From contig JAJECT010000019.1 in NCBI GenBank assembly GCA_022821845.1, positions 129,814 to 193,813 of the forward strand: a stretch of 64,000 nucleotides of DNA. The letters run 5' to 3'. Numbering within the stretch: position 1 is the first letter of the stretch; the number at the start of each line of letters is the position of its first letter. The translations under genes and the position numbers were made by a program. A model generated the notes under the pieces. That model saw only the letters and a program-made list of their open reading frames with translations, ran no database searches and had not been told where the DNA came from. This DNA comes from Rhodothermales bacterium (GTDB taxonomy: Bacteria > Bacteroidota > Rhodothermia > Rhodothermales > VXPQ01). This document shows positions 11,576 through 63,912 of this stretch, in pieces.

Positions 11576-11620
11576 ACATGAATACGGCGAATTTTAAGGA
11601 ACATCATAACCCAAGAACGC

Positions 11621-12115: not shown

Positions 12116-12300
12116 GCCGAGGTAATGTTTCTTATGCGAAAAATCACGTGCGCCAAGTGGGATGGTATGCGCAACGCCCAAAGGGGCTTGGCGAAAGGGG
12201 AGATTTCCGCCGACGCCGTGACGGTTGACTTCCGAACCTGACCTCATGATCATATGGCGCCTACTGGGAAATGTCTCGTGTCATAGAAACTCCAACTACA

Positions 12301-33647: not shown

Positions 33648-36090
33648 AGCAAAACCCCCATCCGTTTCAGGTGCTCTTCAACCTTGGCGCTATACGCCTC
33701 GACATCCTGCTCCAGTTCCGGGAGCGGACGGGCATAGCGCTCTTCAAGTTCCTGTACGCGCCCGGCAAGCCGCTGGGTAAGCCGTTCCACCTCCCCCTCG
33801 ATAGCAGCCCGAATATCGGCGAACCATTTGTCCTCCACCACGACCGCCTTGATTTCGGCTTCGGCGAGTACGCCATAGCGGGCCAACGCCTGTTCATCCA
33901 AAACAGATTGGGCCGATTTGACCGATTTGGTCGCTTTCGCCTCAACCGCCATCAGATCCCGGCATCGCTGAAGAACAGTACGCTCCTCATCGCCTTCTGG
34001 TTCATAGCGGAGAGCCTTGAGCCTTGCTGCCACCGAAGTTTTAGTAATCTTGCCCTTGTCGTTGACCACATCCTCCAGCAAACCCTCCTCGCCGGTGTAT
34101 TCCTCGACAAATTCCTCCAGTTTGCGGGCGGCTGCCTCCTGTCTGGCCCGTAGCCCCTCTATCTCGGTCTGCTCACCGGCAAAATAACGCGCAACGATCA
34201 ATTCCGGGGGAATCAAGTCCATCTTGTATTTCGCGCCCTTGACCGTCAAATCCGGCGTTTCCTTGATTTTCTTTTTCTTTTCGTGGATAATCCCGCGCGG
34301 CCTGGCGGCGTCGGCCCAGCCCTCCGTTACGATAAGATACACATCGTCCTGCATTGCCTCGTCCCAGTAATTCATCAGCCGCTGGTAGACATTGTACCGA
34401 TCCAGTAGCGGCAAATCGGAAAACCGCGCCAGCAGGTCTTCCGACAGTTCATAGATGACGTCTCTGGGATTGTCTCCCGGCGCAAGCTCCTTCAGAAACG
34501 GTTCGTGCTTCTCGCGCCAATCGTCGAAAACAGCCGTAATCCTGCCCCTGTATTTCCTGAATTCCTCGTGGGCAAGAATCGTGTTTTTGATTTGTCCCGC
34601 CTCGATTCGCGCCTCGCTGTAGCCTGGACGACCGTTGCCCGTAAACAATGTCTGGCGCAACGAGGGGAAAACATGCCAGTACGCTTCCAGCGAATCAATG
34701 TCGCGGTCGGGAATGCCGCCGTACAGATGCCCGCTCAGGTCGTGCAAGTCTTCCGGCTCGCTGGAATCTATGTAGCGCGGGATGTTCAAATTGTAATCGT
34801 TGGCAGCATTGGCGATCTCCGATACCGGCACCATGCGGGAATAGCCGGGCAATTCAATCTGCTTGTTAAACACATCCACGATCTTGTGGATGTCCTGCGC
34901 GCGCAGGCGGTTCTTGGGCCCTTCCTTGAGAAAACCCTTGCTTGCATCCACCATAAAGATACCGGTGCGGGCACGGGCATATTCCTTGTCGATGATCAAA
35001 ATACAAGCGGGTATGCCCGTCCCGTAAAACAGGTTGGCGGGCAAACCGATGACCCCCTTGACGAAACCGCACCGGATCAGATTTTTGCGAATATCGGCCT
35101 CCTTGTTTCCGCGAAACAAAACGCCGTGGGGCAGAATGATCGCGCCCTTGCCGCTACTCTTGAGCGATGCAATGAGATGCAGCAGGAAAGCGTAGTCTCC
35201 GTTTTTCGGCGGGGGAACGCCGTACTCGAAACGCCCGAATTGGTCGTGGGCCGGATCAAGCCCGTTCGTCCAGGCCTTGTCGGAGAATGGCGGATTAGCA
35301 ACCGCAAAATCGAAGACCTTGACCCCCCCCCCCGGGTTGTAAAGTGTGGAGCAGCCAATGTATTACCATTCCTCAGTTCGGCGGTCGAATTACCCTGCAG
35401 AACCATGTTCATCTTCGCCAACGCCCAAGTGGCATTATCCTTCTCCTGACCGTAGATGGCAAGTTTCTGCGTGTCCGCTTCGTCATATGCCTTGATCAGG
35501 AGCGAGCCAGAGCCGCAAGTGGGATCGTAGACAGTGGGATCCGTCAGTTCGCAGGCGCGCTCAATATCAATGACCTTCGCCATAACCCGGGACACCTCGG
35601 CAGGCGTATAGAATTGCCCTTTGCTTTTGCCAGACTCGGTGGCGAAATGCTTCATCAGATACTCGTACGCATCGCCCAAAAGATCGTCGCCCCCGGCGCG
35701 GTTGGCGCGAAAATCCAGGCCTTCGAACAAAGCGACCAGTTTCGAGAGCCGGTCCTGCATTTCCTTGCCTTTGCCGAGTTTGGCTTCGTCGTTGAAATCG
35801 GCCTGGTCAATAACGCCCTTGAGTTCGTTGGCCTCGGCGAGCCTGGATATGATCTTGTTGATTTTGTCTCCGATCTCCTTGTCGCCCTTGAGTCTCGCCA
35901 TGTCGGTGAAACTGCCGCCGGGCGGCACCTCAATAGCCGCATCCGGGGTGCCATCGTGCTTGTCGGATACGTACTTCATGAACAGCAGCGTCAGGACATA
36001 ATCCTTGTACTGCGAAGCATCCATGCCGCCGCGCAATTCGTCGCAGCTTTGCCAAAGCGAGGAATAGAGTTGAGACTTCTTGAGGGCCAT
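33644..36090 (-). CDS. hsdM: Type I RM methyltransferase subunit, frame broken at a poly-G tract
   Basis: One gene in two frames. The first (36090 to a stop at 35077) starts MALKKSQLYSSLWQSCDELR and carries GQFYTPAEVSRVM and VYDPTCGSGSLLIKAY (SAM motif I). At 11 coding-strand G (35323-35333) the frame slips. The correct continuation, in the frame ending at 33644, reads VKVFDFAVANPPFSDKAW (motif IV, NPPF) and the C-terminal region. A tract of 12 or 9 G would give about 815 residues. In the present state the product lacks NPPF and cannot methylate. The C-terminus is a charged coiled coil. Confidence 0.88.
35323..35333 (-). repeat. 11-base homopolymer in hsdM, likely phase-variation switch
   Basis: Eleven C on the plus strand, eleven G on the coding strand, encoding TTRGGG. 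The frame is open with 9 or 12 G and broken with 11. It lies between SAM motif I and NPPF, so slippage separates the two halves of the active site. Confidence 0.8.
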
Positions 36091-42467: not shown

Positions 42468-43238
42468 CTACGCCCCGGCCCGCTCGTACTGCTCCGCCAG
42501 CCAGGCGGCGTAGCCCTCCGCCGTGTGCACCGTAAAGTAGCCACGCATGCGATAATGACCCACGCCGCAGAGTTGCGCGCACGCGATTTCCCACTCGCCC
42601 GTGCGGATGGGCGTGAAATACAACGGAATGGACAATCCGGGAATCGCGTCCTGCTTCACCCGCATTTCCGTCAGGGTGAAACTGTGGATCACATCCTTGG
42701 ACGTAAGGTGTACGATGACCGGCTTGTCCACGGGCACATGCATCTCGTTGACGGTAACGAGGTCGTCCGCCGCCGCCGGATCGTCCGGCTTTAACCCGAT
42801 CGGGTTGGTTTGCAGGTCCACCAGGTGGATGTCCCGCTCGCCGAAGACGCCGTCGGGTCCCGGATAATGGATATTCCACGCGAACTGCTCCGCAATCACA
42901 TGCACCACCGTGGATTCTTCCTCAGACGGATAGTTCGCCTCTGCCCGCAGCGTCGCCCAGGTAGGAATCGCGAACGCAAAGAGCAGCACCAGTTCCGCTA
43001 CGACCACGCCGACCTCCTGATAGGTAGAGAAGTGCGACTTGGCGCCGTAGTAGTCCGCTTTGGGGTTTCTGGAGGCCCGGAACCGGTACAACGTGTAGAG
43101 AAAGAACGGCGCCCAAATAAGGAAAAGCACCAGCATCAACCAGTGCACCAGCCCCATCATGGCGTCGATTTCCGCGCTGTGCGCCGACGCCGCTTCGGGC
43201 AACCCAAGGTAATTTGTAAGATCAAGCCACTTTAGCAT
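42468..43238 (-). CDS. coxB: Cytochrome c oxidase subunit II
   Basis: 256 residues. Two membrane helices (about 25-50 and 75-98) precede the CuA cupredoxin domain. CuA ligands are seen: His in DVIHSF, then CAQLCGVGHYRM supplying two Cys, His and Met, with Glu. No CXXCH, so it lacks the fused cytochrome c domain of many caa3 enzymes. It accepts electrons from a soluble or membrane cytochrome c, or a cupredoxin. It closes the oxidase gene run. Confidence 0.94.
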   Translation of the reverse strand: MLKWLDLTNYLGLPEAASAHSAEIDAMMGLVHWLMLVLFLIWAPFFLYTLYRFRASRNPKADYYGAKSHFSTYQEVGVVVAELVLLFAFAIPTWATLRAEANYPSEEESTVVHVIAEQFAWNIHYPGPDGVFGERDIHLVDLQTNPIGLKPDDPAAADDLVTVNEMHVPVDKPVIVHLTSKDVIHSFTLTEMRVKQDAIPGLSIPLYFTPIRTGEWEIACAQLCGVGHYRMRGYFTVHTAEGYAAWLAEQYERAGA

Positions 43239-44838: not shown

Positions 44839-46617
44839 CTAATTTTCCGACGCTTCGGCAGGCGGAACATCCTGCGGCCAGTAATCTTCGTCGTGGTCCG
44901 GGTGGCTGTATTCGTACGGATCCCGGTACACGGTCGGCAGGTCGCGGAAGTTGCCGTGTCCCACCGGCGGCGACGGCGCGGCGGACCATTCGAGCGTCGT
45001 GGCGTTCCAGTGGTTGTCCGCGGCGGCCTTGCCCTTCTTCATGCTGACGAGCAGATTCACGATAAACGGAATCTGGAAAACGAACAGCACCCACGCGGCG
45101 ATCGACATCACTTCGTTGTAGACGAGCACGTCCTGCGCATGGGCATAGATTTGCCCCCCGTCGTACAGCCGTCGCGACACGCCGGCCAGCCCCTGAATGA
45201 GCATCGGGAAGAAAATAAAATTCATGCTGACGAGGGTGCCCCAGAAATGAATCTTGCCGAGCGTATCGTTCATCGTTCGCCCGGTCATCTTCGGGAACCA
45301 GTAATAGATCCCGCCCATGAGCGCGAGAATGGTGCCTGGCGCCACCACGTAATGGAAATGTCCGATCACGTAATAGGTGTCGTGCAGGGGAATGTCCGTG
45401 GCGGCGAGTCCCAGCGGCAATCCGGTGAGCCCGCCAATGCCGAACATGGGCAAAAAGCCCAGCGCAAAGAGCATGGGCGTCGTAAAGCGAATGGAACCGC
45501 CCCACAGCGACAGGAAAAGGGCCGTGAGAATAATCACCGACGGGACCGATATGATCATCGTGGTGGTCTGGAAGAAGGTGCTCATCACCTGGCCCATGCC
45601 GGTAATGAACATGTGGTGCGCCCAGACGATGAACGACATGAAGCCAAGGAAAACAAGGGAGTAGACCAGGACCTTGTAGCCCTTGAGCGGCTTGCGGGCG
45701 TTATTGGCGATAATTTCCGCGACAATGCCCATGGCCGGCAGCACCAGCACGTAGACCTCCGGGTGCGCCAGAAACCAGAAGAGATGCTGCCATAGCAATG
45801 GACTGCCCCCGCCCGCCACATCGACCACTTCTCCGCTTACGACCAGGCCCGACGGCATGAAAAAACTGGTGTCGAGCAAGCGATCCGACAATTGCAGGAC
45901 GGCCGCCGCCTCCAGCGGAGGAAACGCCAGCAGCAACAGAAACGACGTAATGAACTGCGCCCACACGAAAAAGGGCATCTGCATGAAGCCCATCCCGTCG
46001 GCCCGCAACTGCACGATGGTCGTCAGGAAATTGACGGCCCCCAGAAGGGAAGACGTGATGAGAAAAACCATGCTGATAAGCCACATGGTCTGCCCCATCG
46101 ACTCGATGACGGACAAGGGAGCGTACGAAGTCCATCCGGCCTTGGCGGCGCCGGCGGGCACGAAGAAACTGCCCAGCATGATTACGCCGCCCACGAAAAA
46201 GACCCAGTAGCTGGCCATGTTCAGCTTCGGAAACGCCATGTCTGGCGCGCCGATCTGCAGCGGCACGACATAGTTGCCGAACGCGCCCACCGCCAGCGGC
46301 ACGATGCCCAGGAACACCATGATGGTGCCGTGCATGGCCCCCAACTGGTTGTAGAACTCGGGCAGCATGATCCCGCCCGGCATCGTGTCGTCGCTAAAAA
46401 GCCAGCCGATCAGCGGCACCGGCTGACCCGGATAGGCCAGCTGCCATCGCATGAGCATGACGAGCGAAAACCCGAACAGCAGGAAAAGAAGCGATGTAAT
46501 GCCGTACTGAATCCCGATAACCTTATGATCGGTCGAGAAAATATATTTTCTCCAGAAAGACTCGTGATGACCGTCTTCCCCGTGGTGGCCTTCCGGGACG
46601 GCTGCATGATCAGCCAT
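44839..46617 (-). CDS. coxA: Cytochrome c oxidase subunit I
   Basis: 592 residues with 12-14 helices. Heme a and CuB ligands are visible: HGTIMVF (low-spin heme His), FWFLAHPEVYVLVLP (CuB His and the cross-linked Tyr), AHHMFITG (CuB His pair) and GHFHYVVAPG (heme His pair). This is an A-type heme-copper oxidase. It reduces O2 to water and pumps protons. Confidence 0.96.
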   Translation of the reverse strand: MADHAAVPEGHHGEDGHHESFWRKYIFSTDHKVIGIQYGITSLLFLLFGFSLVMLMRWQLAYPGQPVPLIGWLFSDDTMPGGIMLPEFYNQLGAMHGTIMVFLGIVPLAVGAFGNYVVPLQIGAPDMAFPKLNMASYWVFFVGGVIMLGSFFVPAGAAKAGWTSYAPLSVIESMGQTMWLISMVFLITSSLLGAVNFLTTIVQLRADGMGFMQMPFFVWAQFITSFLLLLAFPPLEAAAVLQLSDRLLDTSFFMPSGLVVSGEVVDVAGGGSPLLWQHLFWFLAHPEVYVLVLPAMGIVAEIIANNARKPLKGYKVLVYSLVFLGFMSFIVWAHHMFITGMGQVMSTFFQTTTMIISVPSVIILTALFLSLWGGSIRFTTPMLFALGFLPMFGIGGLTGLPLGLAATDIPLHDTYYVIGHFHYVVAPGTILALMGGIYYWFPKMTGRTMNDTLGKIHFWGTLVSMNFIFFPMLIQGLAGVSRRLYDGGQIYAHAQDVLVYNEVMSIAAWVLFVFQIPFIVNLLVSMKKGKAAADNHWNATTLEWSAAPSPPVGHGNFRDLPTVYRDPYEYSHPDHDEDYWPQDVPPAEASEN

Positions 46618-46735: not shown

Positions 46736-47533
46736 TCAGACTCCTCCTCCGTCGCCGAAGGTAAAGTCGAGCAGGACGGATTCGCCGTCGGCCACGGTCA
46801 CGCTCTGTTCCTGTACGCCGTATTCTTCGTGCCAGGCCTCGATGACATAGTCTCCGGCGGGCAGGTCTCCTATCGAATAGCCCCCCGTCTCGTCGGACGT
46901 GCTGAAAAAGGGATGGTCCGTGACGCCGGCCCAGGATTCCATCCAGGGATGCACGTCGCACTTGATGCGGGCGGCGACCTCGGGAACGCGGAACGTTTCC
47001 GTGCGCTCCTGCCCCGCCGTGGGCATCCCGAAATTAAACGGACGATTCGCTTCCGGCAACGCATGGATGTTGTGCAAGAGCGCGTCGCTGTTTTTAATCA
47101 GGATGGGCTGCCCGGCCTGTACGCCGAACACATGCGGGGTATAGGTGCATCCCACCTGGTCCAGCACCACCGGCTCGGAGGAAGCAGGGAACGTCATATC
47201 TCCAAGCCCATCCTTGACGTATACGAAGACCCAGCGCAGCGTGCCGTTGTCGTTGACGATGACTTTCTGGCTGAGGGCAGGATCCATTTCGTTCTGGCTG
47301 CGGATGTCCATGCATTCGCGGTCCAGGTTGAGTTCCTGCGGCTCGGGAGCCATGCCCGTAAATTGAATGGATCCCGATACGACGGCGCTTCCCGCCGGGG
47401 TATATTCCTCTGCGGCCGCCTCGCCGCCATCCGCGGCCTCGCCGCCGGCGTCGTCGGCCGCGCCGCCGCCGCATCCCGCGACGAGCAGGGCGACCAGAGC
47501 GAGCGGAAGCATGGAAAACATAATTCTGTTCAT
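46736..47533 (-). CDS. Cupredoxin-like lipoprotein heading the oxidase operon
   Basis: 265 residues. The lipobox is LLVAGC (Cys-21), followed by a Gly/Ala/Glu-rich linker. A cupredoxin-type domain at about 50-205 has type-1 copper ligand candidates: His in LLHNIH and CDVHPWM (Cys, His, Met). A short carboxypeptidase-regulatory-like beta domain (about 210-262, GGYSIGDLPAGDYVIEAWH) follows. Likely an electron donor or copper carrier for the oxidase. An AAGGACG-type ribosome site lies upstream. Confidence 0.8.
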   Translation of the reverse strand: MNRIMFSMLPLALVALLVAGCGGGAADDAGGEAADGGEAAAEEYTPAGSAVVSGSIQFTGMAPEPQELNLDRECMDIRSQNEMDPALSQKVIVNDNGTLRWVFVYVKDGLGDMTFPASSEPVVLDQVGCTYTPHVFGVQAGQPILIKNSDALLHNIHALPEANRPFNFGMPTAGQERTETFRVPEVAARIKCDVHPWMESWAGVTDHPFFSTSDETGGYSIGDLPAGDYVIEAWHEEYGVQEQSVTVADGESVLLDFTFGDGGGV

Positions 47534-52126: not shown

Positions 52127-52606
52127 CTACATGCCCATGCCGCGGCGCGCCTCGTTCAGGACCGACTCGGTCACTTCCGCAAACCCCTCTGCTTCCGCAT
52201 AGCGCTCCACCCCCTGCATAACCATCCCGCGGGCGGAAGCAGGGATATTCTCCATGCGCTGGAGCGCGCCCTCGGTCCAGGGCATGCCGCTGCGCGCGAA
52301 GGCGTCGTTGACCATACCCGTAAACGGGCATTTCGAGGCGCCGCCATGCGCAGCCGGGGCGGCATCCTCGACCGACGAGGCCGCCAGGCCGTTTCGTATG
52401 CCCTCCATCGGCTCGGCGGGAACGGCCTGTCCGCCAATCTTCACGCCCAGGGAGCGCACCACTTGCGTCTCGCTCGCATTGGTGAGCATGGCCGTTTGAT
52501 TGCCGCACGCGGGGCAACCAAATACAACCGTCATGGAGCCGCGGTCCGGGCCGCGCGTTTCGTCGAGGCGCATGGCCTCGTCACATTGCACGCAAAGAAA
52601 TTTCAT
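52127..52606 (-). CDS. Zinc-ribbon protein with PCP_red-like domain
   Basis: 159 residues. The N-terminus has CVQC and CPACG, a Cys4 zinc ribbon. After a loose linker the C-terminal 60 residues (GMPWTEGALQRMENIPASAR, then a IE-YA-like helix pair) match the PCP_red domain found at the end of light-independent protochlorophyllide reductase subunit B. In that enzyme it contacts the tetrapyrrole substrate. Start overlaps the Mrp stop by 4 bases. Confidence 0.65.
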   Translation of the reverse strand: MKFLCVQCDEAMRLDETRGPDRGSMTVVFGCPACGNQTAMLTNASETQVVRSLGVKIGGQAVPAEPMEGIRNGLAASSVEDAAPAAHGGASKCPFTGMVNDAFARSGMPWTEGALQRMENIPASARGMVMQGVERYAEAEGFAEVTESVLNEARRGMGM

Positions 52607-53496
52607 GAGGCGTCCAGAAGCAAGGTTAGTCGATCGGCCAGTTCGGCGAAGGCGCGCGCCGCCGGACGATCAGGATATTCTAGAAGGTACGCATTTCCAT
52701 CGTCGGCAGCCATGCCGAGCGCTGGATCGAAGGGGATACGGGCAAGCACGGGGACGTCCAGCGCATCCGCCAGCGGTTCTGTACGACCCGGCGGGTACAA
52801 CGGATCCTCCTTGCCGCAATGCGGACAGGCGCGCGACGCCATGTTTTCGACCAGCCCCAGCAAAGGCACGTCAAGGTATTCCCGGACCATGCGCACGGAA
52901 CGTCCCACCACCTCCAGAGACACCGCCGAAGGGATCGTCACTGCCACCGCGGCGTCGATGCGCGGCGCCACGTCGGTCAGCGTCGGCAAACGCTCCGATC
53001 CCGGAGGCAAATCCACCAGAAGCATATCCAGCGCGCCCCATTCGGTATCGGCGATCAGCTCCCGCAACGCGCCGGCCTCGCGGAGCCCCCGCCACGCGGC
53101 GCCGCCCGCTTGCGAAGGCGCGTCCCACGCCACCGGCGCGGTTTCGTCGCGCAAAAAGAGCGCCATGGACATGACGCGCACGCCCCATGTCGTTTCGGGA
53201 GGAATCACGGTTCCTTCCATGCGCGACAGGCTGATGGGGGTCTGTACGCCCGTCATGCGTCCAAGCGAGGGGCCATTGATATCCCCGTCCACGAGTCCGA
53301 TGCGCCCGCCTGCCCGCGCCAGCGCCGCGGCAAGATTCACCGCCACCGTACTCTTCCCGACGCCCCCCTTCCCGCTCATAATCGCCACGATACGGCGTAC
53401 GTCGCGGAGGCGGTCTGCAAGCTGGTTCGCCTGCTCGGCCACCTGGCCCGCCACATCGGACCCCCCGTCGGTCGCTATGTCGCGCCAGGTTTTCAT
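52603..53496 (-). CDS. Mrp/NBP35-type Fe-S cluster carrier ATPase
   Basis: 297 residues. The deviant Walker A is MSGKGGVGKSTVAVNLAAAL (about 40-59) and DGDINGPS follows; LLVDLPPGS is the switch region. CPHC near residue 225 is the CxxC that binds the bridging Fe-S cluster. It loads Fe-S clusters on apoproteins. In this operon the radical SAM protein and the ferredoxin are obvious clients. Confidence 0.88.
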   Translation of the reverse strand: MKTWRDIATDGGSDVAGQVAEQANQLADRLRDVRRIVAIMSGKGGVGKSTVAVNLAAALARAGGRIGLVDGDINGPSLGRMTGVQTPISLSRMEGTVIPPETTWGVRVMSMALFLRDETAPVAWDAPSQAGGAAWRGLREAGALRELIADTEWGALDMLLVDLPPGSERLPTLTDVAPRIDAAVAVTIPSAVSLEVVGRSVRMVREYLDVPLLGLVENMASRACPHCGKEDPLYPPGRTEPLADALDVPVLARIPFDPALGMAADDGNAYLLEYPDRPAARAFAELADRLTLLLDAS

Positions 53497-53518: not shown

Positions 53519-55453
53519 TCACGAAGCGGCCTTTTCCGCCTGCTGCTTGCGAATGGCTTCTTCCATGGCCTTCCGGGACACTTCCACGCCTTCTTCGGCG
53601 ATCTCCAGCGTAATGATGGCGGTGTTGCGCCCGTCCGCCGCCGTCTCCATCCGTCCCTGGGTCTTGTCGCGCATGAATCCCTCGGGAACCCGTTCGAGGC
53701 GGGCCCAGGCTTCCGGCGTCCACCTGTAGGCGCCCTTCTCGATGAATTCGACCGGGACCGCTTCGCGGCCCGGGGCCTCGCCCGCCGGATTCTCCTTCAG
53801 TCCGGCGCCGGGCGCAGAAAGCGCCGAAGTATCCTCAAGCAAATCGCCCACGACCGCCGCCACCATGTCGCGGGTAATCGTATCCAGCCCCTTGACGCGG
53901 GCGCTCTTTTCGATCTGCGCCCGCGCGCGGCGCATCTGGTAGCCGTCTGGCACTTTTCGCAGCAGTTCGCGCGCGTCCCGCGTCCACTTGATCTTCTTTT
54001 TGTCGAAGGTTTCGACCTCTTCGACGGCGCCTTCCAGCGGCGCCAGTTTCCGAAGCGCTTCCTTGTCTATTTTCTGGAACTGTTCGGGGGCGGCGCCGCA
54101 AACCGCGCACACGGCCGGCCTGAATCCGCGCGCCGCGTAGCCGCACTGGCTGCATACGTACGTCTCTTCGTCGTCGGCGGCAATTTTGTCGCGGGCCACG
54201 GTTTCGGCGATAATGCCCATGGACCGCATGGCGGATTCCGGCAGAATGGTGGCCATGGCCTGCTCCACCACTTTTTGCGTAATCACCGAGTGCCCTCGCT
54301 CCATGGCCCAGCGATGAATCGTCGTGCGGGCAATGTTGCGGGCAAAGTCGGGCGCGGTGTTGACGAGGGCGGTCGCCTCGTCCGTCCAGATCATGGACTC
54401 TTCGGCCTGCACGTCGAGCGGAGGCGTATACCGTTTGCTGGACAGCAACACATTGCAGGGAACCATCCGCAACAGATTTTCGGTGTTGCTGCCGATATCC
54501 ATGTCCTCGTCGCTATGCACCCCGATACGGCCCAGCACCAGCAACCAGGGCTTCTCCCGGCGGACGTACTGAAGAATCTTGTCGAACGCTTTGCCGTCCA
54601 GCAGCGTGATTTTCAAATCCACGCCCTCCTCGGCGGCCACGCGATGCGCCACTTCAAGGTGCGACTGGTAGATTTTCGCAAGTCCTGTGTCGATCACCTC
54701 TTCGTGAAGTTGCTCCTGCTCCTTGAACCGGAATACTTTCGAGGCCTTTTCGGTAAGCACATTCACGATGCTATTGAACATCGCATAGTGCAAATACGGA
54801 TCGTAGACCGACACCGCCTCCACGCGCTTGTCCAGTTTCCGGCTCAGTTCGAGCGCCGTTTTGAGGCCCGCAAACGATTCGGGGCTGCCGTCGACGCCCA
54901 CGACGATGTGTCCGCCGTCCGCCTCGCCCACAGCATGGCCGTTCATCTGGCGCTCGAACGAATCCGTGTTCTTTACGATCAACATGTCCGTGCGCGCCCG
55001 CCGCACCACCCGCGAACATACGCTGCCCAGTACGCTGTCCCGAACGGCGCCCAGGCCAAGCGCGCCCATCACCACGAGGTCGTAGTCGCTTTCCTCTATA
55101 TCCTCCACGATCACCTTCCAGTTCTTCCCGTCGTACATTTTCGGCTGAAAAGGCAATTTTTCCTCGCGGCAGCGCTTGTCCATCACGGTCAGGTACGAAT
55201 CCGAAATCAGTTCGAGCCCCATGGTGATGAGCGTGTCGTGCACCTTGCGCTGCTTTTCCATCTCCTCTTCGACGAGGTATTCCTCCGGCAGCGTAAACTC
55301 CATCTGCTTGAAGCGATAGTCGTGCATCCGGGCGGCGTAGGCATGGCTGCCCACGAGCTCCGCGTCGAGTCGCTTCGCCAGCTCGACGGAAAGGTCGATA
55401 CTCGCCATCGAATGGTCCGAGTTGTCCACCGGAACGAATATGGTCTTGTACAT
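53519..55453 (-). CDS. Fusion of two universal-stress domains, three PCP_red-like domains and a rubredoxin-like zinc site
   Basis: 644 residues. Usp domain 1 (about 1-160) has the ATP-binding GALGLGAVRDSVLGS loop; Usp domain 2 (about 182-345) has GRIGVHSDEDMDIGS. PCP_red-like units begin with WTDEATALVNTAPDFARN (about 363), WTRDARELLRKVPDGYQ (about 490) and WTPEAWARLERVPEGFM (about 575). Between the first two is CSQCGYAARGFRPAVCAVCG, a rubredoxin-type Cys4 site. Cytoplasmic. An energy- or redox-sensing scaffold for the operon's cofactor chemistry is one reading; the true role is unknown. Confidence 0.75.
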   Translation of the reverse strand: MYKTIFVPVDNSDHSMASIDLSVELAKRLDAELVGSHAYAARMHDYRFKQMEFTLPEEYLVEEEMEKQRKVHDTLITMGLELISDSYLTVMDKRCREEKLPFQPKMYDGKNWKVIVEDIEESDYDLVVMGALGLGAVRDSVLGSVCSRVVRRARTDMLIVKNTDSFERQMNGHAVGEADGGHIVVGVDGSPESFAGLKTALELSRKLDKRVEAVSVYDPYLHYAMFNSIVNVLTEKASKVFRFKEQEQLHEEVIDTGLAKIYQSHLEVAHRVAAEEGVDLKITLLDGKAFDKILQYVRREKPWLLVLGRIGVHSDEDMDIGSNTENLLRMVPCNVLLSSKRYTPPLDVQAEESMIWTDEATALVNTAPDFARNIARTTIHRWAMERGHSVITQKVVEQAMATILPESAMRSMGIIAETVARDKIAADDEETYVCSQCGYAARGFRPAVCAVCGAAPEQFQKIDKEALRKLAPLEGAVEEVETFDKKKIKWTRDARELLRKVPDGYQMRRARAQIEKSARVKGLDTITRDMVAAVVGDLLEDTSALSAPGAGLKENPAGEAPGREAVPVEFIEKGAYRWTPEAWARLERVPEGFMRDKTQGRMETAADGRNTAIITLEIAEEGVEVSRKAMEEAIRKQQAEKAAS

Positions 55454-55458
55454 ACGGG

Positions 55459-55863
55459 CTAATAGATCAGTTTGAGGCGGTCGTAAATGTACGTAAGGCG
55501 ATACATAACATAACGCAACGGTTCGAAATCTTCTGCAAGAAGCGAAACCGCGAGCAAGGCGCGCTGCAAATGGTCGGCGCGGCCCGCAAGCGAAGCGCGT
55601 TTCGCGTCTTCCAGGCCGTCGGCGAACGCATGCATCCCGAAACGCGCCCGCACCAGCGCGTTCCAGGCATCGCTGCCCGGCTCAACGCCTTCCATGACCC
55701 GCTCCAGCCGCCCCGTTTCCATGCGCACGATGGCGGGGGCCATGCGTCGGAATTCCTTCCAGCCCACGAAATCCAGCTCGTTCCAGTCCAGCCGCTTCGC
55801 AGCCAACTCGGCGGCGCGCGCTTCCAGCGCGTCGGACGGCGCTATGTCCCGAGAGGAGGCCAT
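55459..55863 (-). CDS. Hypothetical protein in cytochrome/PCP_red operon
   Basis: 134 residues from the ATG at 55863, 14 bases after the upstream stop. All helical; contains RLDWNELDFVGWKEFRRMAP and a C-terminal Tyr-rich helix (MYRLTYIYDRLKLIY). No membrane helix, no Cys motif. Known only by its operon. Confidence 0.6.
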   Translation of the reverse strand: MASSRDIAPSDALEARAAELAAKRLDWNELDFVGWKEFRRMAPAIVRMETGRLERVMEGVEPGSDAWNALVRARFGMHAFADGLEDAKRASLAGRADHLQRALLAVSLLAEDFEPLRYVMYRLTYIYDRLKLIY

Positions 55864-56749: not shown

Positions 56750-57544
56750 TTATCCTTGCCTGTGTCCGTTCAGGGCCTGCTTGTCGATCACGCCGCCCGC
56801 CTCGTTCACGGTGTTGTCGCTCCGCTTGCCCGGATACCGGCGCTTCGGCGTCTTGTCTTTCCAGCGGTAAATCCAGAAGCAGTAGGCATACGGATAAATG
56901 GTCTGGACTACATGGAACGGCTCATATTCGAACAGGCGCCGCATCGCCCAGCAGAAACGGTACCGCTTGTCCTCCGGCTCCATGATTTCCACCACGCAAT
57001 CCGCCTGAAAACTCACGAACACCGGCGCGTTGCCGGTCCACAACACGGAAGCAAAGGGATTCTCGACCAGGTTCCGAAGCGTCGATCCCTCGAAAATCTC
57101 AAGCAGCCCGACGCGCCGAAAATCGATATGCTCGGGATGAGAATACAGTTCGCGGGCCGTCCGAATGCGCAAATCGCGCGTCTCGTTGACGGCATGAGGA
57201 GGCAGCTCCTCGATCTGCGCGACGGCGTCCTCGACCAGTTTAAGGTAATGATCGATATGCTCGTCCTTCGGGGTGAACCCTACGCCCTTGTTGGCCAGGT
57301 TCGGCACGAGCGCGTCCTCGGCCCATGTGGCCACCACCGGCAAATGGCCTGCGTTGAACGCAATGTACTGATCCTGTTCTATCGCGTCGTAAATGCTGTG
57401 TTTGTAATCGAGCTGCCACCGAATGAACTTCTCCGGCAGTTCGATGACGTCCAGATGCTGATCGGCGCCCTCCTTTTTGAGGCGGGCTACGCCATTGGTT
57501 ACCTGTACTTGCTCCGTGAGCGTTTTTGCGTCAAGCTGTTCCAT
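56750..57544 (-). CDS. Conserved-looking hypothetical protein, cytoplasmic
   Basis: 264 residues. Soluble, rich in aromatic residues (PEKFIRWQLDYKHSIYDAIE; VVQTIYPYAYCFWIYRWKDK). A Cys/His/Trp-rich C-terminal half might bind a cofactor. It lies 33 bases after the radical SAM gene and 63 before the ferredoxin. No family recognised. Confidence 0.6.
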   Translation of the reverse strand: MEQLDAKTLTEQVQVTNGVARLKKEGADQHLDVIELPEKFIRWQLDYKHSIYDAIEQDQYIAFNAGHLPVVATWAEDALVPNLANKGVGFTPKDEHIDHYLKLVEDAVAQIEELPPHAVNETRDLRIRTARELYSHPEHIDFRRVGLLEIFEGSTLRNLVENPFASVLWTGNAPVFVSFQADCVVEIMEPEDKRYRFCWAMRRLFEYEPFHVVQTIYPYAYCFWIYRWKDKTPKRRYPGKRSDNTVNEAGGVIDKQALNGHRQG

Positions 57545-57577: not shown

Positions 57578-58882
57578 CTACGCGAGTCGTTCCGGAATAG
57601 AAACTTCTTTAATAGCCTGACTATCCTGTGGTTTCCCGACCGGCTCCGAAAAAGACGGCGCCCCCCGGTCCATGCCTGCAAGGGCTTCCTGCATGACGCG
57701 GGCGGAGATGCGCCGAACCCCGTGACGGTCGGCGTACGCTTCAAGGCCCTTGCGGACTTTGTTGCGAATGAAAGAGATGGGAATGCGGTCCAGCCGCGCT
57801 TGCGCTTCGGGGGACCATTCGATATCGCATTGGTCCAGCGCCCGGCCCGTCGGCTGGTACAGACAGGCCGGGTCCTCGGCCAGATAATCCTTGAAGGCCG
57901 CCTGGGCGCGACACCGGCAACCGCCGCAAAGTTCGTTGAACTCGCAGGCCCCGCATTTGCCCTTGAGGCGGGCAGGGTCTCGCAAATCCGTCAGCACGGG
58001 GGACGAAGCCCATATCTCCGAAAAGGACTGTTCGCGGACATTTCCGGCAACCACCGTCATGTACGGACACGGCGTAACGTCCCCGCCCGGCGTGATGCGG
58101 CAATATTCCGTGCCCGCCATGCACCCCCCGCTCTCCAGGCCTCCCAGTCCTTCGTCGTACGCGATCTGTTTGAATTGGGGGGCGCACTTGGACCGAACCA
58201 GCATGGGGCGGTACTCGTCCTGCACATGCGCCATTTCTCGAAGGAGCGCGTCTGTGGCGAGGGCGGAAAGGTCGTTCATCTCCTGCCCCCGACCCGTCTG
58301 CACCAGAAAATACAGATTGAAGGACCAGGCGCCTTTCTCCCGCGCAAACGCCATGAGTTCCGGGATTTCCTCCCGGTTCATGTCCATCGCGGTCGTTTGC
58401 ACGAGCGTTTGCAGCCCATGGCGACGGCAGGTTTCCAGGGCGCGCACCGAATGCGCCCAGGCGTTCGGCCCGCCGCGAAAAGCGTTGTGTTTTTCGGGGT
58501 CGATAGAGTCGATGCTTATGCCCACCCCTTTTACGCCGCATTCCGCCATCTTGCGGGCCACGAAATCGTTGACCATGACGCCGTTCGTCCCCATCACGAC
58601 CCACATTCCCCGCTCCGAGGCTTTCTGCGCAATCTGATAAATATCCCGGCGCAGCAGCGGCTCGCCGCCGGTCAGGATGAGCATCTCCGTGCCCAGCGCC
58701 TCCATCTCGTCAATGAGCGCAAGGCACTCGTCCGTGGTCAACTCGTTCTCTTCGGCGGCGCCTCCTTCCATATAGCAATGCGGGCACTTGAGATTGCATT
58801 TCCTGGTCAGATTCCAGGAAACCAGCGAAGGACGATGCCCTGTGGAGGGAGACACGAAAGACAGGGAGCGGGCGGCGTCCAT
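57578..58882 (-). CDS. Radical SAM/SPASM protein with C-terminal PCP_red-like domain
   Basis: 434 residues. CNLKCPHC (about 29-36) is the radical SAM cluster site, followed by LTGGEPLL and SIDSIDPEKH. The SPASM region has CGACEFNELCGGCRCRA and further Cys for auxiliary Fe-S clusters. After CLYQPTGRALDQC a PCP_red-like unit (about 350-400) begins WSPEAQARLDRIPISFIRNK. The core resembles AhbD/NirJ-type heme or heme d1 enzymes that decarboxylate or trim propionates of tetrapyrroles. A tetrapyrrole substrate is therefore plausible but inferred. Confidence 0.8.
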   Translation of the reverse strand: MDAARSLSFVSPSTGHRPSLVSWNLTRKCNLKCPHCYMEGGAAEENELTTDECLALIDEMEALGTEMLILTGGEPLLRRDIYQIAQKASERGMWVVMGTNGVMVNDFVARKMAECGVKGVGISIDSIDPEKHNAFRGGPNAWAHSVRALETCRRHGLQTLVQTTAMDMNREEIPELMAFAREKGAWSFNLYFLVQTGRGQEMNDLSALATDALLREMAHVQDEYRPMLVRSKCAPQFKQIAYDEGLGGLESGGCMAGTEYCRITPGGDVTPCPYMTVVAGNVREQSFSEIWASSPVLTDLRDPARLKGKCGACEFNELCGGCRCRAQAAFKDYLAEDPACLYQPTGRALDQCDIEWSPEAQARLDRIPISFIRNKVRKGLEAYADRHGVRRISARVMQEALAGMDRGAPSFSEPVGKPQDSQAIKEVSIPERLA

Positions 58883-58921: not shown

Positions 58922-60538
58922 TCAGGCGGAAACGGGCGTACGGCGGCGAAAACGCATCAGTCCGACGATGCAGAGCAGCGCCAGCAAGGTCAGGCCGCCC
59001 GCGCGCAGCATGGGCATCACGGGCGAAGGACGCTCGGAAGGCGCAATGTACAGATAGTACCATCCGGTAATGCCCCGGCGATTGCCCCGCTCGTCGTTGA
59101 ACCCGTCCCATACCGAAAAGGCGATGGGGACGAACGCGCCTTCCGCAAAACGCTCGTCGCGCGGCATGGCGAACACGGCGGTCCATTCTCCGTCCTCGTA
59201 CGTCGCATGCACGGACGGAGCGGTTTCGCCGGCAATCAGGTTGCCGCTGCCTCGTCCGACATACGAACGGCCCGCGCCCGACGCCAGATCGGCGAACCAT
59301 AAATCCACCGGCTGCCCGGCGTCTCCGAACAGGAAATACGGCAGGCCTTCCGGCGCCAGTTCCTGCGGAAACTGTATGGCGACCGCATCGGACCAGACGC
59401 TGGCCACCGTATCCCGAACAACCTGCTCGATGGGCGGAACCGCCATATCCGGCGCATTTTCGCCCGTCGTTTCCGCAGACATGTCGTTCCATGCAAGCAG
59501 GATAGCGATTTCGTCTGCATTGTAGCGGGCTTTCACTTCGACGCCGTCCACGCCCGGCATAAAGGAGCGTCCCGGTTCGATCACTTGCCCCACGACGGGG
59601 AAATAGGCGCCGCGCGCCGCGCCAAAAGCAGCCCGGCCCTGCGCCGGATCGACGGGATCGGCTGCGTAGCGCGCCGTGGCGGCGGTCGCATAGTCGGGTT
59701 CGTCCTGCGACAGCGAGTAGACATAATCGACAAGGGCCCAGCTGTCCTCTATCGGGGTAATGCTGTAGGATGGCATGGGCGAGCCGTCCAGCCCCGTGGT
59801 GAACGTGCGGTAAATGTCCTGGCGCGTGGCGCCCCCGATAAAGGTCCAGCGTTTCGTCAGGTCGGCGGGGCGGATATGGTTGCCCCACTGCTCCTGCAGG
59901 GTCGGGGCGGAAGGTCCGTCCCCGCGCCCGGCCATGCCGTGGCAATCGAAGCACTGGTTCTCTTCGTACACCGCGCGTCCTCGCTCGGCGGACGCTTCGC
60001 TAAACGACGGAGGATCCGGAATCTCGACGAGGTCCGGCACGCCATACGGCCCGGAAAAATCGGCGTTGAAGGTTTTGAGGTAGTAGACGAGATTGCGAAT
60101 TTCGTCGTCGCTGAGTTGCGGCCAGGGGGGCATGCCCGTATACGGCATCCCGTCGCGAATCACCCGCGCAAGGTCGTCGTCCGTGGGCAGTTGCCCGCTC
60201 GGCGTGGTGCGAACCTTGTACACGCCCGCGGTAAAATCGCGGGGCATCGGACGCATGAAAGGCGCCGCCACGCCATCCCCTTGCCCGGCGTCTCCGTGAC
60301 ACTGCGCGCACTTGTCCATATACAAGGACCGGCCGGCTTCGCGTTGTTCGTCGCTGCCCAGATCGGGCGCGGGTTGCGCCCAGGCCGCGAGCGGAAGCCC
60401 CGCGACGCCCAGGCACGCCGCAAGGACGCACGACAGAAAGCCCGATCGGGAAAAACGCCCAACGGCGCGTCTTGCCCGGCAAGCAGCAAGGCGAATCGCT
60501 ATGTCGGTTTTATTCCTAATGACCGTCTCCCCCTCCAC
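58922..60538 (-). CDS. Di-heme cytochrome c fused to an ethylbenzene dehydrogenase-like heme domain
   Basis: 538 residues. A signal peptide region reaches about residue 54 (AAWAQ). Two cytochrome c units follow with CAQCHG (about 76) and CFDCHG (about 197). The C-terminal half (about 290-500) resembles the heme-b binding gamma-subunit/DOMON-type domain of ethylbenzene dehydrogenase, with a final membrane helix LTLLALLCIVGLM. The start overlaps the upstream gene by 23 bases; a GTG at 60523 is an alternative. Periplasmic, membrane-anchored electron carrier. Confidence 0.8.
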   Translation of the reverse strand: MEGETVIRNKTDIAIRLAACRARRAVGRFSRSGFLSCVLAACLGVAGLPLAAWAQPAPDLGSDEQREAGRSLYMDKCAQCHGDAGQGDGVAAPFMRPMPRDFTAGVYKVRTTPSGQLPTDDDLARVIRDGMPYTGMPPWPQLSDDEIRNLVYYLKTFNADFSGPYGVPDLVEIPDPPSFSEASAERGRAVYEENQCFDCHGMAGRGDGPSAPTLQEQWGNHIRPADLTKRWTFIGGATRQDIYRTFTTGLDGSPMPSYSITPIEDSWALVDYVYSLSQDEPDYATAATARYAADPVDPAQGRAAFGAARGAYFPVVGQVIEPGRSFMPGVDGVEVKARYNADEIAILLAWNDMSAETTGENAPDMAVPPIEQVVRDTVASVWSDAVAIQFPQELAPEGLPYFLFGDAGQPVDLWFADLASGAGRSYVGRGSGNLIAGETAPSVHATYEDGEWTAVFAMPRDERFAEGAFVPIAFSVWDGFNDERGNRRGITGWYYLYIAPSERPSPVMPMLRAGGLTLLALLCIVGLMRFRRRTPVSA

Positions 60539-61349
60539 CGTGATCCTCCCGCGCCCGCGGTCGGTGTCCAGTGAAATCGTACAGGAAAAGCGTCACGTCC
60601 CACATCTCCTCTTCCGTAAGAAAATTTTCCCAGGCGGGCATGGCCGACAACCAGGGCGTGGATTCGCTCGGCAGGCCCGGACCGCCCTTGGCGATGCGCC
60701 AGAAGATATAGCCCTCCTGAAGCATGGCGATCGTCGTGGCGTCCTGAAAATTCGCCGGAATGGGATCGTATCCGTGGGCGAAAAGGCCGTCCCCCGCCAT
60801 ATCGTCCCCGTGGCAGTACACGCAATTCTCGTAGTACACGCGCCGCCCGTTCGCCACATGTTCCGCAAAAGCGGCCGGATCTTCCGTCTCCAGCGCGCGA
60901 TACGGGTTGTCGTCGTTGACCAGGTCGATCATGCGGCCGGCCACCTCGATGCTCACCGGCGGCGGCGGATGAATCGTGCGGCTGCTGAGTGGAGGCGCAG
61001 GCCCTTCCGTAATGTCGAAATATACCCGGAGCGCCACAAGACAAGGCAACAGCACGAGGGTGACCGCGAGGGCAACCGTATACTTCTTCTCCGTAGCAAA
61101 GGCCACGGCCCGGTCCAGCACGAAACGGAAATGCACCGAATTCGCCGAAATGTACGCCAGGAGCGCAAGCGTAAGAATCGCAAGGAACATCCCCTGAATC
61201 GAGGTGGGCAAGGGCGGATTGATGCCCCAGCGCAGAAAAACGAAGGTGGCGGCCCACCATCCAACGAGCCAGCCGAGGATGTTCATCTTCGGGACGAAGC
61301 GCAGCGCAAGAAGCCCCGCGCACGCCGCAAGCAGGATAAGGATATTCAT
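60516..61349 (-). CDS. Membrane-anchored mono-heme cytochrome c
   Basis: 277 residues. Four hydrophobic helices in the first ~115 residues, then a cytochrome c domain with CVYCHGDDMAGDG (about 175) and a Met-rich C-terminal half. Ends with His-rich HGGGGDGH. It overlaps its neighbours (4 and 23 bases). Part of the same electron chain as the CydA-like protein. Confidence 0.85.
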   Translation of the reverse strand: MNILILLAACAGLLALRFVPKMNILGWLVGWWAATFVFLRWGINPPLPTSIQGMFLAILTLALLAYISANSVHFRFVLDRAVAFATEKKYTVALAVTLVLLPCLVALRVYFDITEGPAPPLSSRTIHPPPPVSIEVAGRMIDLVNDDNPYRALETEDPAAFAEHVANGRRVYYENCVYCHGDDMAGDGLFAHGYDPIPANFQDATTIAMLQEGYIFWRIAKGGPGLPSESTPWLSAMPAWENFLTEEEMWDVTLFLYDFTGHRPRAREDHGGGGDGH

Positions 61350-62170
61350 GACCCTCCCTTTTGCATTGCCAGGTAATCAACCAGCGTTTTGAGCTGTCCG
61401 GACGAGATCTTGTCGTAAAATCCGGTCGCGTTCAGCTGGGCGGACATCAGGCCCGCCGTAAATTCCTCCGCCACGACGGCGTCGGGGTCCATGATCGCCT
61501 CGTAGAGTTCGGCGGTCGAAAAATCGTTGCCCGCATTGTACAAACTGGGACCAAGAAGCGGCGTGGGTTCGGTAACGCTGTGGCATGTGCCGCAGGCGTA
61601 CATGGCGAACAATTCCTCGCCGGACAGATTCTCCGCCGAAGGCCCCGCCGCCGCGCCGGCTTGCGAAGCCGCAGCAGCGGCGGCGGAATTTTCCTCGCTC
61701 TGCCAGCGCAATTCCGTATCCAGCGTAACCGTGGCGACGCCGCCAAGACTCTGGAGGTACGCAATCACGGCAAGGATTTCTTCGTCGTTCAAGTCGATGG
61801 GCGGATCGGAGATGGGCGTCATGCCGGGCAAAAAGCCCTCGACGATATATTCGTTGGGGTCGTAAAGCGATTCGGCGAGATACTCCACGTCGCTGAACCC
61901 CTCCTTCCGGTCGGCGGCCACCAGCCCGATGTTCGCCAGATCGGGAAAACGCCCCCCGGTATCCCCGGATACGGTATGGCACGTAAGGCACGTCCCCTTG
62001 CCCCCCGCGATTTCCTCCCCGGCGACGACCAGTTCCTCCGTAGTCATGTCGGCGCCCAGCTCCGTCTCTTCGGGCGGATACGTCACCTTCTGCGGCACCA
62101 TCTGGCTGACGTAGCTATAAAAGGCAGCCACGAGGACCGTGAAGACGCATATCTTGAGTGCATTCATCAT
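61346..62170 (-). CDS. Membrane-anchored di-heme cytochrome c
   Basis: 274 residues. One N-terminal anchor (about 5-22), then two cytochrome c domains with CLTCHTVSGDTGGRFPDL (about 61) and CGTCHSVTEPTPLLGPSL (about 193). An Ala-rich linker joins them. The stop codon and start overlap the neighbours by 4 bases each (ATGA). It resembles the cytochrome c partner of alternative quinol or oxidase complexes. Confidence 0.88.
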   Translation of the reverse strand: MMNALKICVFTVLVAAFYSYVSQMVPQKVTYPPEETELGADMTTEELVVAGEEIAGGKGTCLTCHTVSGDTGGRFPDLANIGLVAADRKEGFSDVEYLAESLYDPNEYIVEGFLPGMTPISDPPIDLNDEEILAVIAYLQSLGGVATVTLDTELRWQSEENSAAAAAASQAGAAAGPSAENLSGEELFAMYACGTCHSVTEPTPLLGPSLYNAGNDFSTAELYEAIMDPDAVVAEEFTAGLMSAQLNATGFYDKISSGQLKTLVDYLAMQKGGS

Positions 62171-63912
62171 GACGACGCGCCCCCCTCGGCCTCAATTTTT
62201 TTCTTACCGGACAAGCTGGACAGGAAAAATACGACCGCAATAAACGCAAAGAAGATCAGCACGGTGACAGACACCACATTGGCGGCGTAGCCCAGCGTAG
62301 GCGTAAACGCATGCTCCGAGGTGTCGCGCATCACGCCGTATACGTGCCAGTGCTGTCGAATGCCCGAACGGACGTAGCCCATCAGCCCCATCGTCCAGGC
62401 AAACGTGATGGCAATGAAAAAAAGCGCGTACTGCGCCCGGTTGGGAATCTTGCCCCACTCGATCGGCCCCAGAATCCTTGCGTTCCTGAACATGAACACA
62501 TCGATGATGGTGATCGATATCATGGCGAAAAGCACCAGGCCCACCTGCGGAATGGACAGCCCGATCCGCACGGACGCTTCGACGAAGTACCCGTAGACGC
62601 CAAGGAAAATAACGACCCCCACGACCGCCGCCAGAATCCCGAATTGCACGATATTGCCCGTTTTCGCCCAGGAAACGGTCGCTTCCTTGTTGGCCCGGCG
62701 ATAAAACAGAAAGCTCAGGTAGGTGGTGAGAATCAGTACGTTGACGGCGGTGTTCTTGGCGGACATCACCCCCAGCACGTTCAGAATCGGGTGATGGGAA
62801 CCGCCCATGGCGCGGGCTTCCTCCACCGTGGCGACCAGCGAATGCGGCGTCGCCCAGACAATGAAACAGACGGTGATGGACGCAAGCAGCCACTTGGTGA
62901 ACTTGCGGTATCGCTCCGCCCCGTGGATGCGCTCCATGCTTAGCCACAGATAATAATTGGCGGCAAGGAACAGGTTGCCGATCAGCACGGCCTGAATGAT
63001 GAACAACCAGGAAAAGGTGCCGCCCATGAGCGCAATGCCCAGACTCTGGGAAAAGGCGTAAATTTCGCGGCCCAGCCAGTACCCTGCGAACGGCAAAGGC
63101 AACAGCGCCGCGATGGCGATGAAATTGCCCATATAGCCCATCCAGTCGTAATGCGCCCGCTCCTCTTCGGTCTTCGCGCCGAGAAACTTGTAGGCCCCGT
63201 ACGCCGCCGCGATGGAACCGCCGAAACAGATGTTCGCGATGAGCCGGTGGATGTTGATGGGCATCCACGTGAAGTTATTGATGGCGTCCCAGGTGCTGAG
63301 CAAATTCCCTTCCGCGTCGATGCCGTTGGGGGAATTCATGAAGGTCAGCCAGGAGTCGGCGATAAAGATGATGGCGATGCCGACCATGTTGAGGCCCAGG
63401 CCAAGCAAAAGGTGTAGCCACTTCGGCATCTTGCCCCATCCGTAATAATAACTGTACAGGAACACGGCTTCGAGAAAGAAGACGCAGGCGTACAGCATGA
63501 ACGTCCAGTCGAAGATGGAGACCAGGTACTCCATCAACCGGGGATACAGAATAAACAGGAAGAACGTAAGGAGAGCGCCGAGGCTTGCCGTAAAGGAGAA
63601 CGAGACGGACAGCAGGCGCGTGAATTCGTGCGCCAGATCGTCGTAGCGCTTGTCGCCGTTGCGAAATCCGATGAACTCGATGGTGAGCGCGAACATCGGG
63701 ACGGCAAGCACGAACGCGCCGAACATCAGGTGCAACTGGGCGATAACCCATACCACCACGCGGCTGCCGACGACGGGGAAGGATCGGTATTCGACGGGTC
63801 CGGCGGCGTCCTGGGCCCATGCGTCGGGCGCCCAGAACGCAACAAGCGCCATGCCCGCTAACATCAAAAACAGGAGGGACCCGGCGGGCAGCCTCCTCGC
63901 AAGCCACTTCAT
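62167..63912 (-). CDS. CydA-like quinol oxidase subunit I, no CydB
   Basis: 581 residues with an extra N-terminal signal-like stretch (about 1-34) before the CydA core. Candidate heme ligands are H61 (QLHLMFGAF) and H222 (NIHRLIANI), the equivalents of CydA H19 and H186. FFLEAVFLYSYYYGWG (E149) and DSWLTFMNSPNG match the CydA helix pattern, and GREIYAF replaces the usual GRxP. No CydB or CydX gene is present in the operon. First gene of the 13-gene run. Oxidase activity is uncertain without CydB. Confidence 0.85.
   Translation of the reverse strand: MKWLARRLPAGSLLFLMLAGMALVAFWAPDAWAQDAAGPVEYRSFPVVGSRVVVWVIAQLHLMFGAFVLAVPMFALTIEFIGFRNGDKRYDDLAHEFTRLLSVSFSFTASLGALLTFFLFILYPRLMEYLVSIFDWTFMLYACVFFLEAVFLYSYYYGWGKMPKWLHLLLGLGLNMVGIAIIFIADSWLTFMNSPNGIDAEGNLLSTWDAINNFTWMPINIHRLIANICFGGSIAAAYGAYKFLGAKTEEERAHYDWMGYMGNFIAIAALLPLPFAGYWLGREIYAFSQSLGIALMGGTFSWLFIIQAVLIGNLFLAANYYLWLSMERIHGAERYRKFTKWLLASITVCFIVWATPHSLVATVEEARAMGGSHHPILNVLGVMSAKNTAVNVLILTTYLSFLFYRRANKEATVSWAKTGNIVQFGILAAVVGVVIFLGVYGYFVEASVRIGLSIPQVGLVLFAMISITIIDVFMFRNARILGPIEWGKIPNRAQYALFFIAITFAWTMGLMGYVRSGIRQHWHVYGVMRDTSEHAFTPTLGYAANVVSVTVLIFFAFIAVVFFLSSLSGKKKIEAEGGASS

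Follow-up and report, generated by a model that had tools for sequence, protein, structure and literature searches.

A Usp-PCP_red-rubredoxin-like fusion protein encoded beside a CydA-like respiratory complex in Rhodothermales and other bacteria

The fusion gene and its operon

The window analyzed here is a 64,000-nucleotide stretch of a Rhodothermales contig (JAJECT010000019.1), and its minus strand carries, from 63912 down to 51670, genes for a CydA-like protein, two c-type cytochromes, a double cytochrome c protein with an EB_dh domain, a radical SAM enzyme with PCP_red, three proteins of 264, 232 and 134 amino acids, the fusion protein that is our subject, a Mrp/NBP35 ATPase, a small PCP_red protein and a CopD-like membrane protein (sub-threshold match). 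The features, in order of transcription, are as follows:

62167..63912, minus strand: CydA-like cytochrome bd subunit I homologue (581 aa; PF01654)
61346..62170, minus strand: c-type cytochrome of the CydA-like complex (Pfam Cytochrom_C; conserved order)
60516..61349, minus strand: c-type cytochrome with a membrane-like N-terminus (Pfam; conserved order)
58922..60538, minus strand: double cytochrome c and EB_dh (ethylbenzene-dehydrogenase heme b subunit-like) protein (Pfam; conserved order)
57578..58882, minus strand: radical SAM/SPASM enzyme of the AhbD/NirJ2 kind with C-terminal PCP_red (Pfam and NCBIfam)
56750..57544, minus strand: 264-aa protein conserved in part of the Rhodothermales (no Pfam match; C-terminal VNEAGG)
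55459..55863, minus strand: conserved 134-aa protein encoded just before the fusion (confined to Rhodothermales; without Pfam match)
53519..55453, minus strand: Usp-Usp-PCP_red-Cys4-PCP_red-PCP_red fusion (ATG start, intact ORF, 644 aa)
52603..53496, minus strand: Mrp/NBP35-type P-loop NTPase (PF10609, 223.2 bits)
52127..52606, minus strand: small protein with a CxxC..CxxC ribbon, an invariant CPF(T/S)G and C-terminal PCP_red (PF08369, 41.7 bits)

The genes are tightly packed: overlaps of 4 bp join the CydA-cytochrome genes to one another and the Mrp gene to the small PCP_red gene, 5 bp separate the fusion from the 134-aa gene, and gaps elsewhere in the operon are short. Upstream, the operon reading ends at the CydA-like gene, and the contig stops about 0.9 kb past the window. 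The fusion protein was complete in all five other genomes of the genus (92–98% identity), and a chance ORF or mis-assembly is excluded by its presence in all six genus genomes and in several phyla.

Downstream of the operon lie genes for cytochrome c oxidase subunits I (44839-46617) and II (42468-43238), and between these and the operon (46736-47533, minus strand) is a gene for a 265-aa lipoprotein-like protein whose tail is carboxypeptidase-regulatory-like and which has a cupredoxin-looking stretch of H..C..H..M type; its relatives flank the cox genes and stand ahead of the fusion in Rokubacteria (L138, L142). Many fusions of other phyla (L099, L101, L107, L109, L110, L118, L123, L124) end in a (L/I)NE(V/I/A)(G/S) motif, possibly a docking tag, whereas the Rhodothermales fusion lacks this ending and the neighboring 264-aa protein ends in VNEAGG. 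Elsewhere in the window, a type I restriction-modification methyltransferase-like gene (33644-36090, minus strand) appears split into two overlapping ORFs of 337 and 491 aa, which may reflect a frameshift, and adjoins HsdS-like (32096-33328) and HsdR-like (27817-30948) ORFs named from reading the sequence. On the plus strand (10139-15282), methyltransferase-like and helicase/restriction-like ORFs of 478 and 1003 aa resemble a type III restriction-modification system.

Domains, conservation and fold of the fusion

The six-part architecture that the earlier note had read from the letters was borne out by Pfam searches, and its parts are located as follows:

54971..55453, minus strand: Usp domain 1 (aa 1-161; ATP motif G130-x2-G133-x9-G143-S; long conserved helical insert, aa about 37-97)
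54434..54910, minus strand: Usp domain 2 (aa about 182-340; ATP motif G308-x2-G311-x9-G321-S; second conserved insert, aa about 217-275)
54257..54388, minus strand: PCP_red domain 1 (aa 356-399; 41.5 bits; fold match 2KRU)
54077..54160, minus strand: Cys4 rubredoxin/rubrerythrin-like site (C434, C437, C449, C452)
53855..53986, minus strand: PCP_red domain 2 (36.5 bits)
53594..53722, minus strand: PCP_red domain 3 (36.4 bits; fold match 2L09)

The Usp family (PF00582, cut-off 24 bits) matched in two stretches with 135.1 bits (E 3.2e-39), which places the protein in that family. PCP_red (PF08369, cut-off 32.5 bits) matched in three stretches with 89.5 bits together (E 1.4e-25), and each stretch, searched as DNA, exceeded the cut-off by itself and belongs to the family. 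The claim of a rubredoxin-like Cys4 site stood in part: RUBY_RBDX (PF21349) scored 21.5 bits, below its cut-off of 26.5, while the CxxCG...CxxC pattern and a fold match identify a rubredoxin-like fold, and rubrerythrin chains match the site by profile (E 8e-7). We predict a metal here, Fe or Zn, and zinc could be the one bound. Pfam found no Oxidored_nitro (PF00148) match in the fusion, and a DPOR-like reductase or BchB enzyme, whose catalytic site lies in that domain, was rejected. The label 'porphyrin-enzyme-type' that the PCP_red domains had been given is thus overstated, as in BchB itself PCP_red is a C-terminal add-on to the Oxidored_nitro domain.

In an alignment of 47 fusion homologues, every domain except PCP_red 3 held invariant residues. 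All four cysteines of the Cys4 site and the ATP motifs (GxxGx9G) of both Usp domains were kept in 47/47 sequences, as was the acidic residue of the first strand in each Usp domain. The cores of PCP_red 1 and 2 were nearly invariant, with W356, A360, P368, R381, E385 and G387 unchanged throughout in the first and A494, Y505, R508, R509, A512, K516 and A518 in the second; relatives from Dormibacterota, Entotheonella and Tectomicrobia have a degenerate PCP_red 3 or have lost it. Each Usp domain also carries one long helical insert, unusual for Usp, that is rich in invariant His, Glu, Tyr and Arg and was modelled with only moderate confidence. By its G-2x-G-9x-G(S/T) motif the fusion falls in the ATP-binding Usp class, and it most likely binds ATP.

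Structurally, the prediction that had been proposed as a check recovered tandem Usp, PCP_red and rubrerythrin-type folds. The model of the full fusion (mean pLDDT 77) had tandem Usp proteins as its top Foldseek matches, with TTHA0350, which has bound ATP, among the nearest folds and TeaD, the Usp of a transporter, among the matches; low-coverage matches to KCC transporters were taken as resemblance to Usp-like domains. Modelled alone (pLDDT 83), the C-terminal arm best matched the solved PCP_red domains 2KRU (Z 8.5) and 2L09 (Z 8.3), with a Foldseek probability of 1.00, followed by nigerythrin and rubrerythrin (probability 0.8-0.94), and a sequence profile search raised PCP_red and rubrerythrin-type domains too. 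PCP_red also resembles the AAA+ lid of RuvB and RuvBL (Z 6.5-7.5), scores that are common among helical folds. The possibility that the PCP_red parts are mere helical linkers without conserved residues, which the earlier note had named as what would refute it, was rejected on the conserved residues and the match to solved PCP_red domains.

Searched as DNA, the host genome holds five PCP_red copies, all in this cluster: three in the fusion, one in the radical-SAM/SPASM enzyme and one in the small protein. Other carriers found were BchB models (which match only the PCP_red tail), BchZ, the AhbD/NirJ-like radical SAM enzyme and a Chlorobi-type flavodoxin, and PCP_red is not confined to BchB; a single Chlorobi-type genome (G061) encodes both a flavodoxin-domain protein with C-terminal PCP_red and a BchZ with PCP_red (L144, L145). 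The PCP_red domains of the fusion may contact a tetrapyrrole, or could instead be docking modules. Cys-Pro is the core of known heme-regulatory motifs, and a Cys-Pro-Phe motif was invariant in 8/8 sequences of the small PCP_red protein; in Acidobacteriota and Dormibacterota, CPxH-type motifs occur in the tail of the fusion. A Dormibacterota-type genome (G390) encodes a small protein (L139:782-1480) in which PCP_red occurs twice and the N-terminal part has CPYP / CPVPHG motifs; it apparently replaces the small PCP_red protein of other phyla. Three Dormibacterota genomes retain the fusion together with a distant CydA-like gene; their PCP_red matches were confined to the fusion and a single small gene, and a PCP_red-tailed radical-SAM gene was seen in none.

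The radical-SAM neighbor scored 345.7 bits against NirJ2 and 296.3 bits against AhbD, both below the equivalog cut-off of 500 bits. The host genome (95.8% complete) contains ferrochelatase and gave no match to siroheme decarboxylase (PF17805), a profile that does match archaeal controls. Because ferrochelatase is present and siroheme decarboxylase absent, a place for this enzyme in the Ahb route to heme b is unlikely, and it is probably not needed for ordinary heme b.

Co-occurrence and gene order with the CydA-like gene

A homologue scan with one genome per species found 147 relatives of the fusion. The 80 kept came from Rhodothermales, Rokubacteria, Methylomirabilota, Acidobacteria, Thermoanaerobaculia, Holophagae, Tectomicrobia, Entotheonella, Dormibacterota, Planctomycetota and others, and homologues with the full architecture were present in several other phyla; the family is spread across several bacterial phyla and is no local oddity.

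Within the order of the host, the fusion was present in 26/114 genomes and the CydA-like gene in 28/114, with no genome holding the fusion without the CydA-like gene; in the two that have the CydA-like gene and no fusion (G307, G371), this gene is close to the end of its contig, at the flank on which the fusion is expected. Acidobacteriota gave a similar picture (fusion in 24/247 genomes, CydA-like gene in 25/247, fusion never alone), and in the exception (G621) a contig end cuts the CydA-like gene. Fisher tests gave p of about 1e-23 for the order and 2e-32 for Acidobacteriota, values that are inflated by relatedness. Within one genus (g9), four genomes (G251, G275, G302, G304) lack both genes and other members carry both, and this joint absence suggests that the two were gained or lost together. 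Outside the order and Acidobacteriota, CydA-like relatives were also found in 19/19 genomes tested, those of three Dormibacterota-type genomes being distant (23-32% identity). The identity patterns of fusion and CydA-like protein correlated with r 0.68 over 17 pairs, weak mirror-tree support. These counts show a genomic partnership of the fusion with the CydA-like complex, near one-to-one in two phyla, and thus a stronger link to the adjacent respiratory complex than the earlier note had suggested. Because the fusion occurs, in both phyla, only in genomes that carry the CydA-like gene, it probably helps to build or control this complex.

Gene order is shared as well, with neighbors of the fusion alike in at least three phyla. 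Seven genomes from other families of the order repeat the series CydA-like, cytochromes, radical SAM, fusion, Mrp and small PCP_red, with a fusion that is 65-70% identical; the radical-SAM enzyme is 67-74% identical across the order. Thermoanaerobaculia-type loci run from CydA through two cytochromes and the cytochrome-EB_dh gene at once into the fusion, with multiheme and Fe-S genes upstream, and Holophagae place the fusion directly before the CydA-like gene. Two Rokubacteria hold CydA, both cytochromes, the cytochrome-EB_dh gene, cox2, cox1 and the fusion in one locus, and in one of these phylum members (L142) radical SAM and Mrp come next after the fusion, with a small PCP_red gene in related loci. 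Acidobacteriota keep the fusion by the structural genes and have the radical-SAM, Mrp and small-PCP genes elsewhere, unlinked or more distant, a layout equally in keeping with a regulatory subunit and with a maturation factor. At two loci (L117, L114), the fusion lies beside two CydA-like genes and a cytochrome b/b6 gene, which suggests a bc-like complex coupled to a CydAA'-type pair.

The quinol-oxidizing cytochrome bd (qOR) motif is GWxxxExGRQPW. The CydA-like protein belongs to the cytochrome bd superfamily (PF01654, 85.8 bits against a cut-off of 26.2) and departs from the qOR motif, with RQHW for the canonical RQPW in 6/6 aligned sequences; its alignment to solved bd oxidases is weak in this region. 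Divergent CydA subunits of the OR-N type have been proposed to use cytochrome c, the OR-N CydAA' bd-like oxidases are discussed as uncharacterized, and in Nitrospirales one CydA type adjoins alternative complex III genes (PMC10839748, PMC12342949). The present CydA-like protein is likewise a divergent CydA-type subunit, and multiheme and Fe-S protein genes adjoin its locus in two cases (L109, L123), comparable to the Nitrospirales complex III arrangement; searches for Usp in both papers, and for PCP or radical SAM in one of them, gave no hit.

Possible roles and comparison with known systems

We tentatively propose that the fusion is a dedicated cytosolic accessory factor, ATP-/redox-responsive, for maturation of the adjacent CydA-like, c-type-cytochrome-linked respiratory complex. 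We infer ATP binding, tetrapyrrole contact, a metal at the Cys4 site and the maturation role. Mechanistically, the tandem Usp half would most likely bind ATP as an energy or state signal, its family-specific inserts would probably contact the complex or a partner, and the PCP_red/rubredoxin-like/PCP_red arm would most likely dock or handle either a tetrapyrrole or the two further PCP_red proteins that the operon encodes, the radical-SAM enzyme and the small CPF-motif protein. The Cys4 site, redox or structural, could be a redox switch or an electron carrier, and the PCP_red modules would bring all three proteins to a common client or cofactor, with the CydA-like subunit as the client and cofactor preparation or insertion as the step. 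This maturation role is supported by the co-occurrence and adjacency, the tight operon, the confinement of PCP_red to the cluster and the universally kept Usp motifs, and also by the other PCP_red hosts found: BchB and BchZ, which reduce tetrapyrroles, the flavodoxin and the AhbD/NirJ-like radical SAM enzyme. Counted against it are the Dormibacterota in which no radical-SAM gene was seen, the modest r, the moderate confidence of the inserts and the zinc that the Cys4 site could hold.

The main rival, possible if somewhat unlikely, makes the fusion a peripheral regulatory subunit of the finished complex, in which the Usp pair would sense ATP and the rubredoxin-like site redox state; together they would gate the passage of electrons through the CydA-like subunit, in the manner of Usp proteins that sit on transporters. 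The near one-to-one co-occurrence serves this reading too, as do the conserved family-specific inserts, the Foldseek matches to Usp domains such as TeaD, and the fact that the fusion still adjoins the CydA-cytochrome genes where the radical-SAM, Mrp and small-PCP genes have moved; alone, however, it leaves the PCP_red shared with the radical-SAM enzyme and small protein unexplained. That sharing within one operon, together with the invariant rubrerythrin-type Cys4 site, would suit a fusion that serves the radical-SAM enzyme, its rubredoxin-like site feeding electrons and its PCP_red joining enzyme and substrate, but the three Dormibacterota keep fusion and CydA-like gene where no PCP_red-tailed radical-SAM gene was seen, which argues against a role solely as its helper, and Acidobacteriota, which keep fusion and CydA linked, have the radical-SAM gene farther off or unlinked; we consider this reading improbable. 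Usp proteins are common, and they frequently occur joined to further domains (PMC12159084); an ordinary stress protein could have entered a respiratory cluster by chance; given near one-to-one co-occurrence in two phyla, alike neighbors in at least three and invariant residues in all domains except PCP_red 3, such hitchhiking is hard to sustain and very improbable.

Beyond a maturation role for the fusion, the whole cluster might be a new cofactor-loading system, in which the radical-SAM enzyme would make a modified tetrapyrrole that the fusion and the small CPF-motif protein would, under ATP/redox control, carry and insert into an oxidoreductase of the cytochrome bd superfamily to which c-type cytochromes supply electrons; we regard this combined scenario as unlikely. 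If it were true, PCP_red would be a general tetrapyrrole-handling module outside photosynthesis. More broadly, divergent CydA-type complexes linked to c-type cytochromes occur widely among uncultured bacteria and are uncharacterized in their biochemistry, and a protein found only with one such complex, across phyla, offers a direct handle on its assembly or regulation. The repeated reuse of PCP_red in one respiratory operon is a route to learning what this domain does, and the fusion may also point to an unusual heme.

As the earlier note had supposed of the architecture, no description of the fusion protein or its operon was found in the open papers searched, nor anything relevant on PCP_red, PF08369 or PCP reductase with Usp or with radical SAM. 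The bare pairing of Usp with a PCP_red-type domain is not wholly unreported, because a 2025 survey of archaeal Usp proteins noted in Methanomicrobiaceae, by automatic annotation, a Usp joined to a domain like subunit B of LI-POR (PMC12159084). That protein, the only published note found, resembles ours in domain type alone, whereas the six-domain layout, the operon and the link to a cytochrome complex are absent there. Like the solved tandem Usp proteins (Rv2623 3CIS, TTHA0350 3AB8, UspE 5CB0), the fusion has two Usp domains in tandem; unlike them, it has long conserved inserts and a 300-residue C-terminal PCP_red/Cys4 arm. It shares with DPOR BchB (2KRU; 2YNM) and Nostoc Asr4154 (2L09) the small helical PCP_red domain, by Pfam, profile and fold, but differs from BchB in lacking the nitrogenase-like Oxidored_nitro domain, in carrying three PCP_red domains per chain and in lying in a CydA-like operon and not among chlorophyll synthesis genes. 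The Cys4 spacing and the profile and fold matches recall the rubredoxin domain of rubrerythrin and nigerythrin; in contrast to rubrerythrin, the Pfam score is sub-threshold and no di-iron domain is among the Pfam matches. Every single domain is thus already known, and what is new is their combination and the strict partnership with a CydA-like gene.
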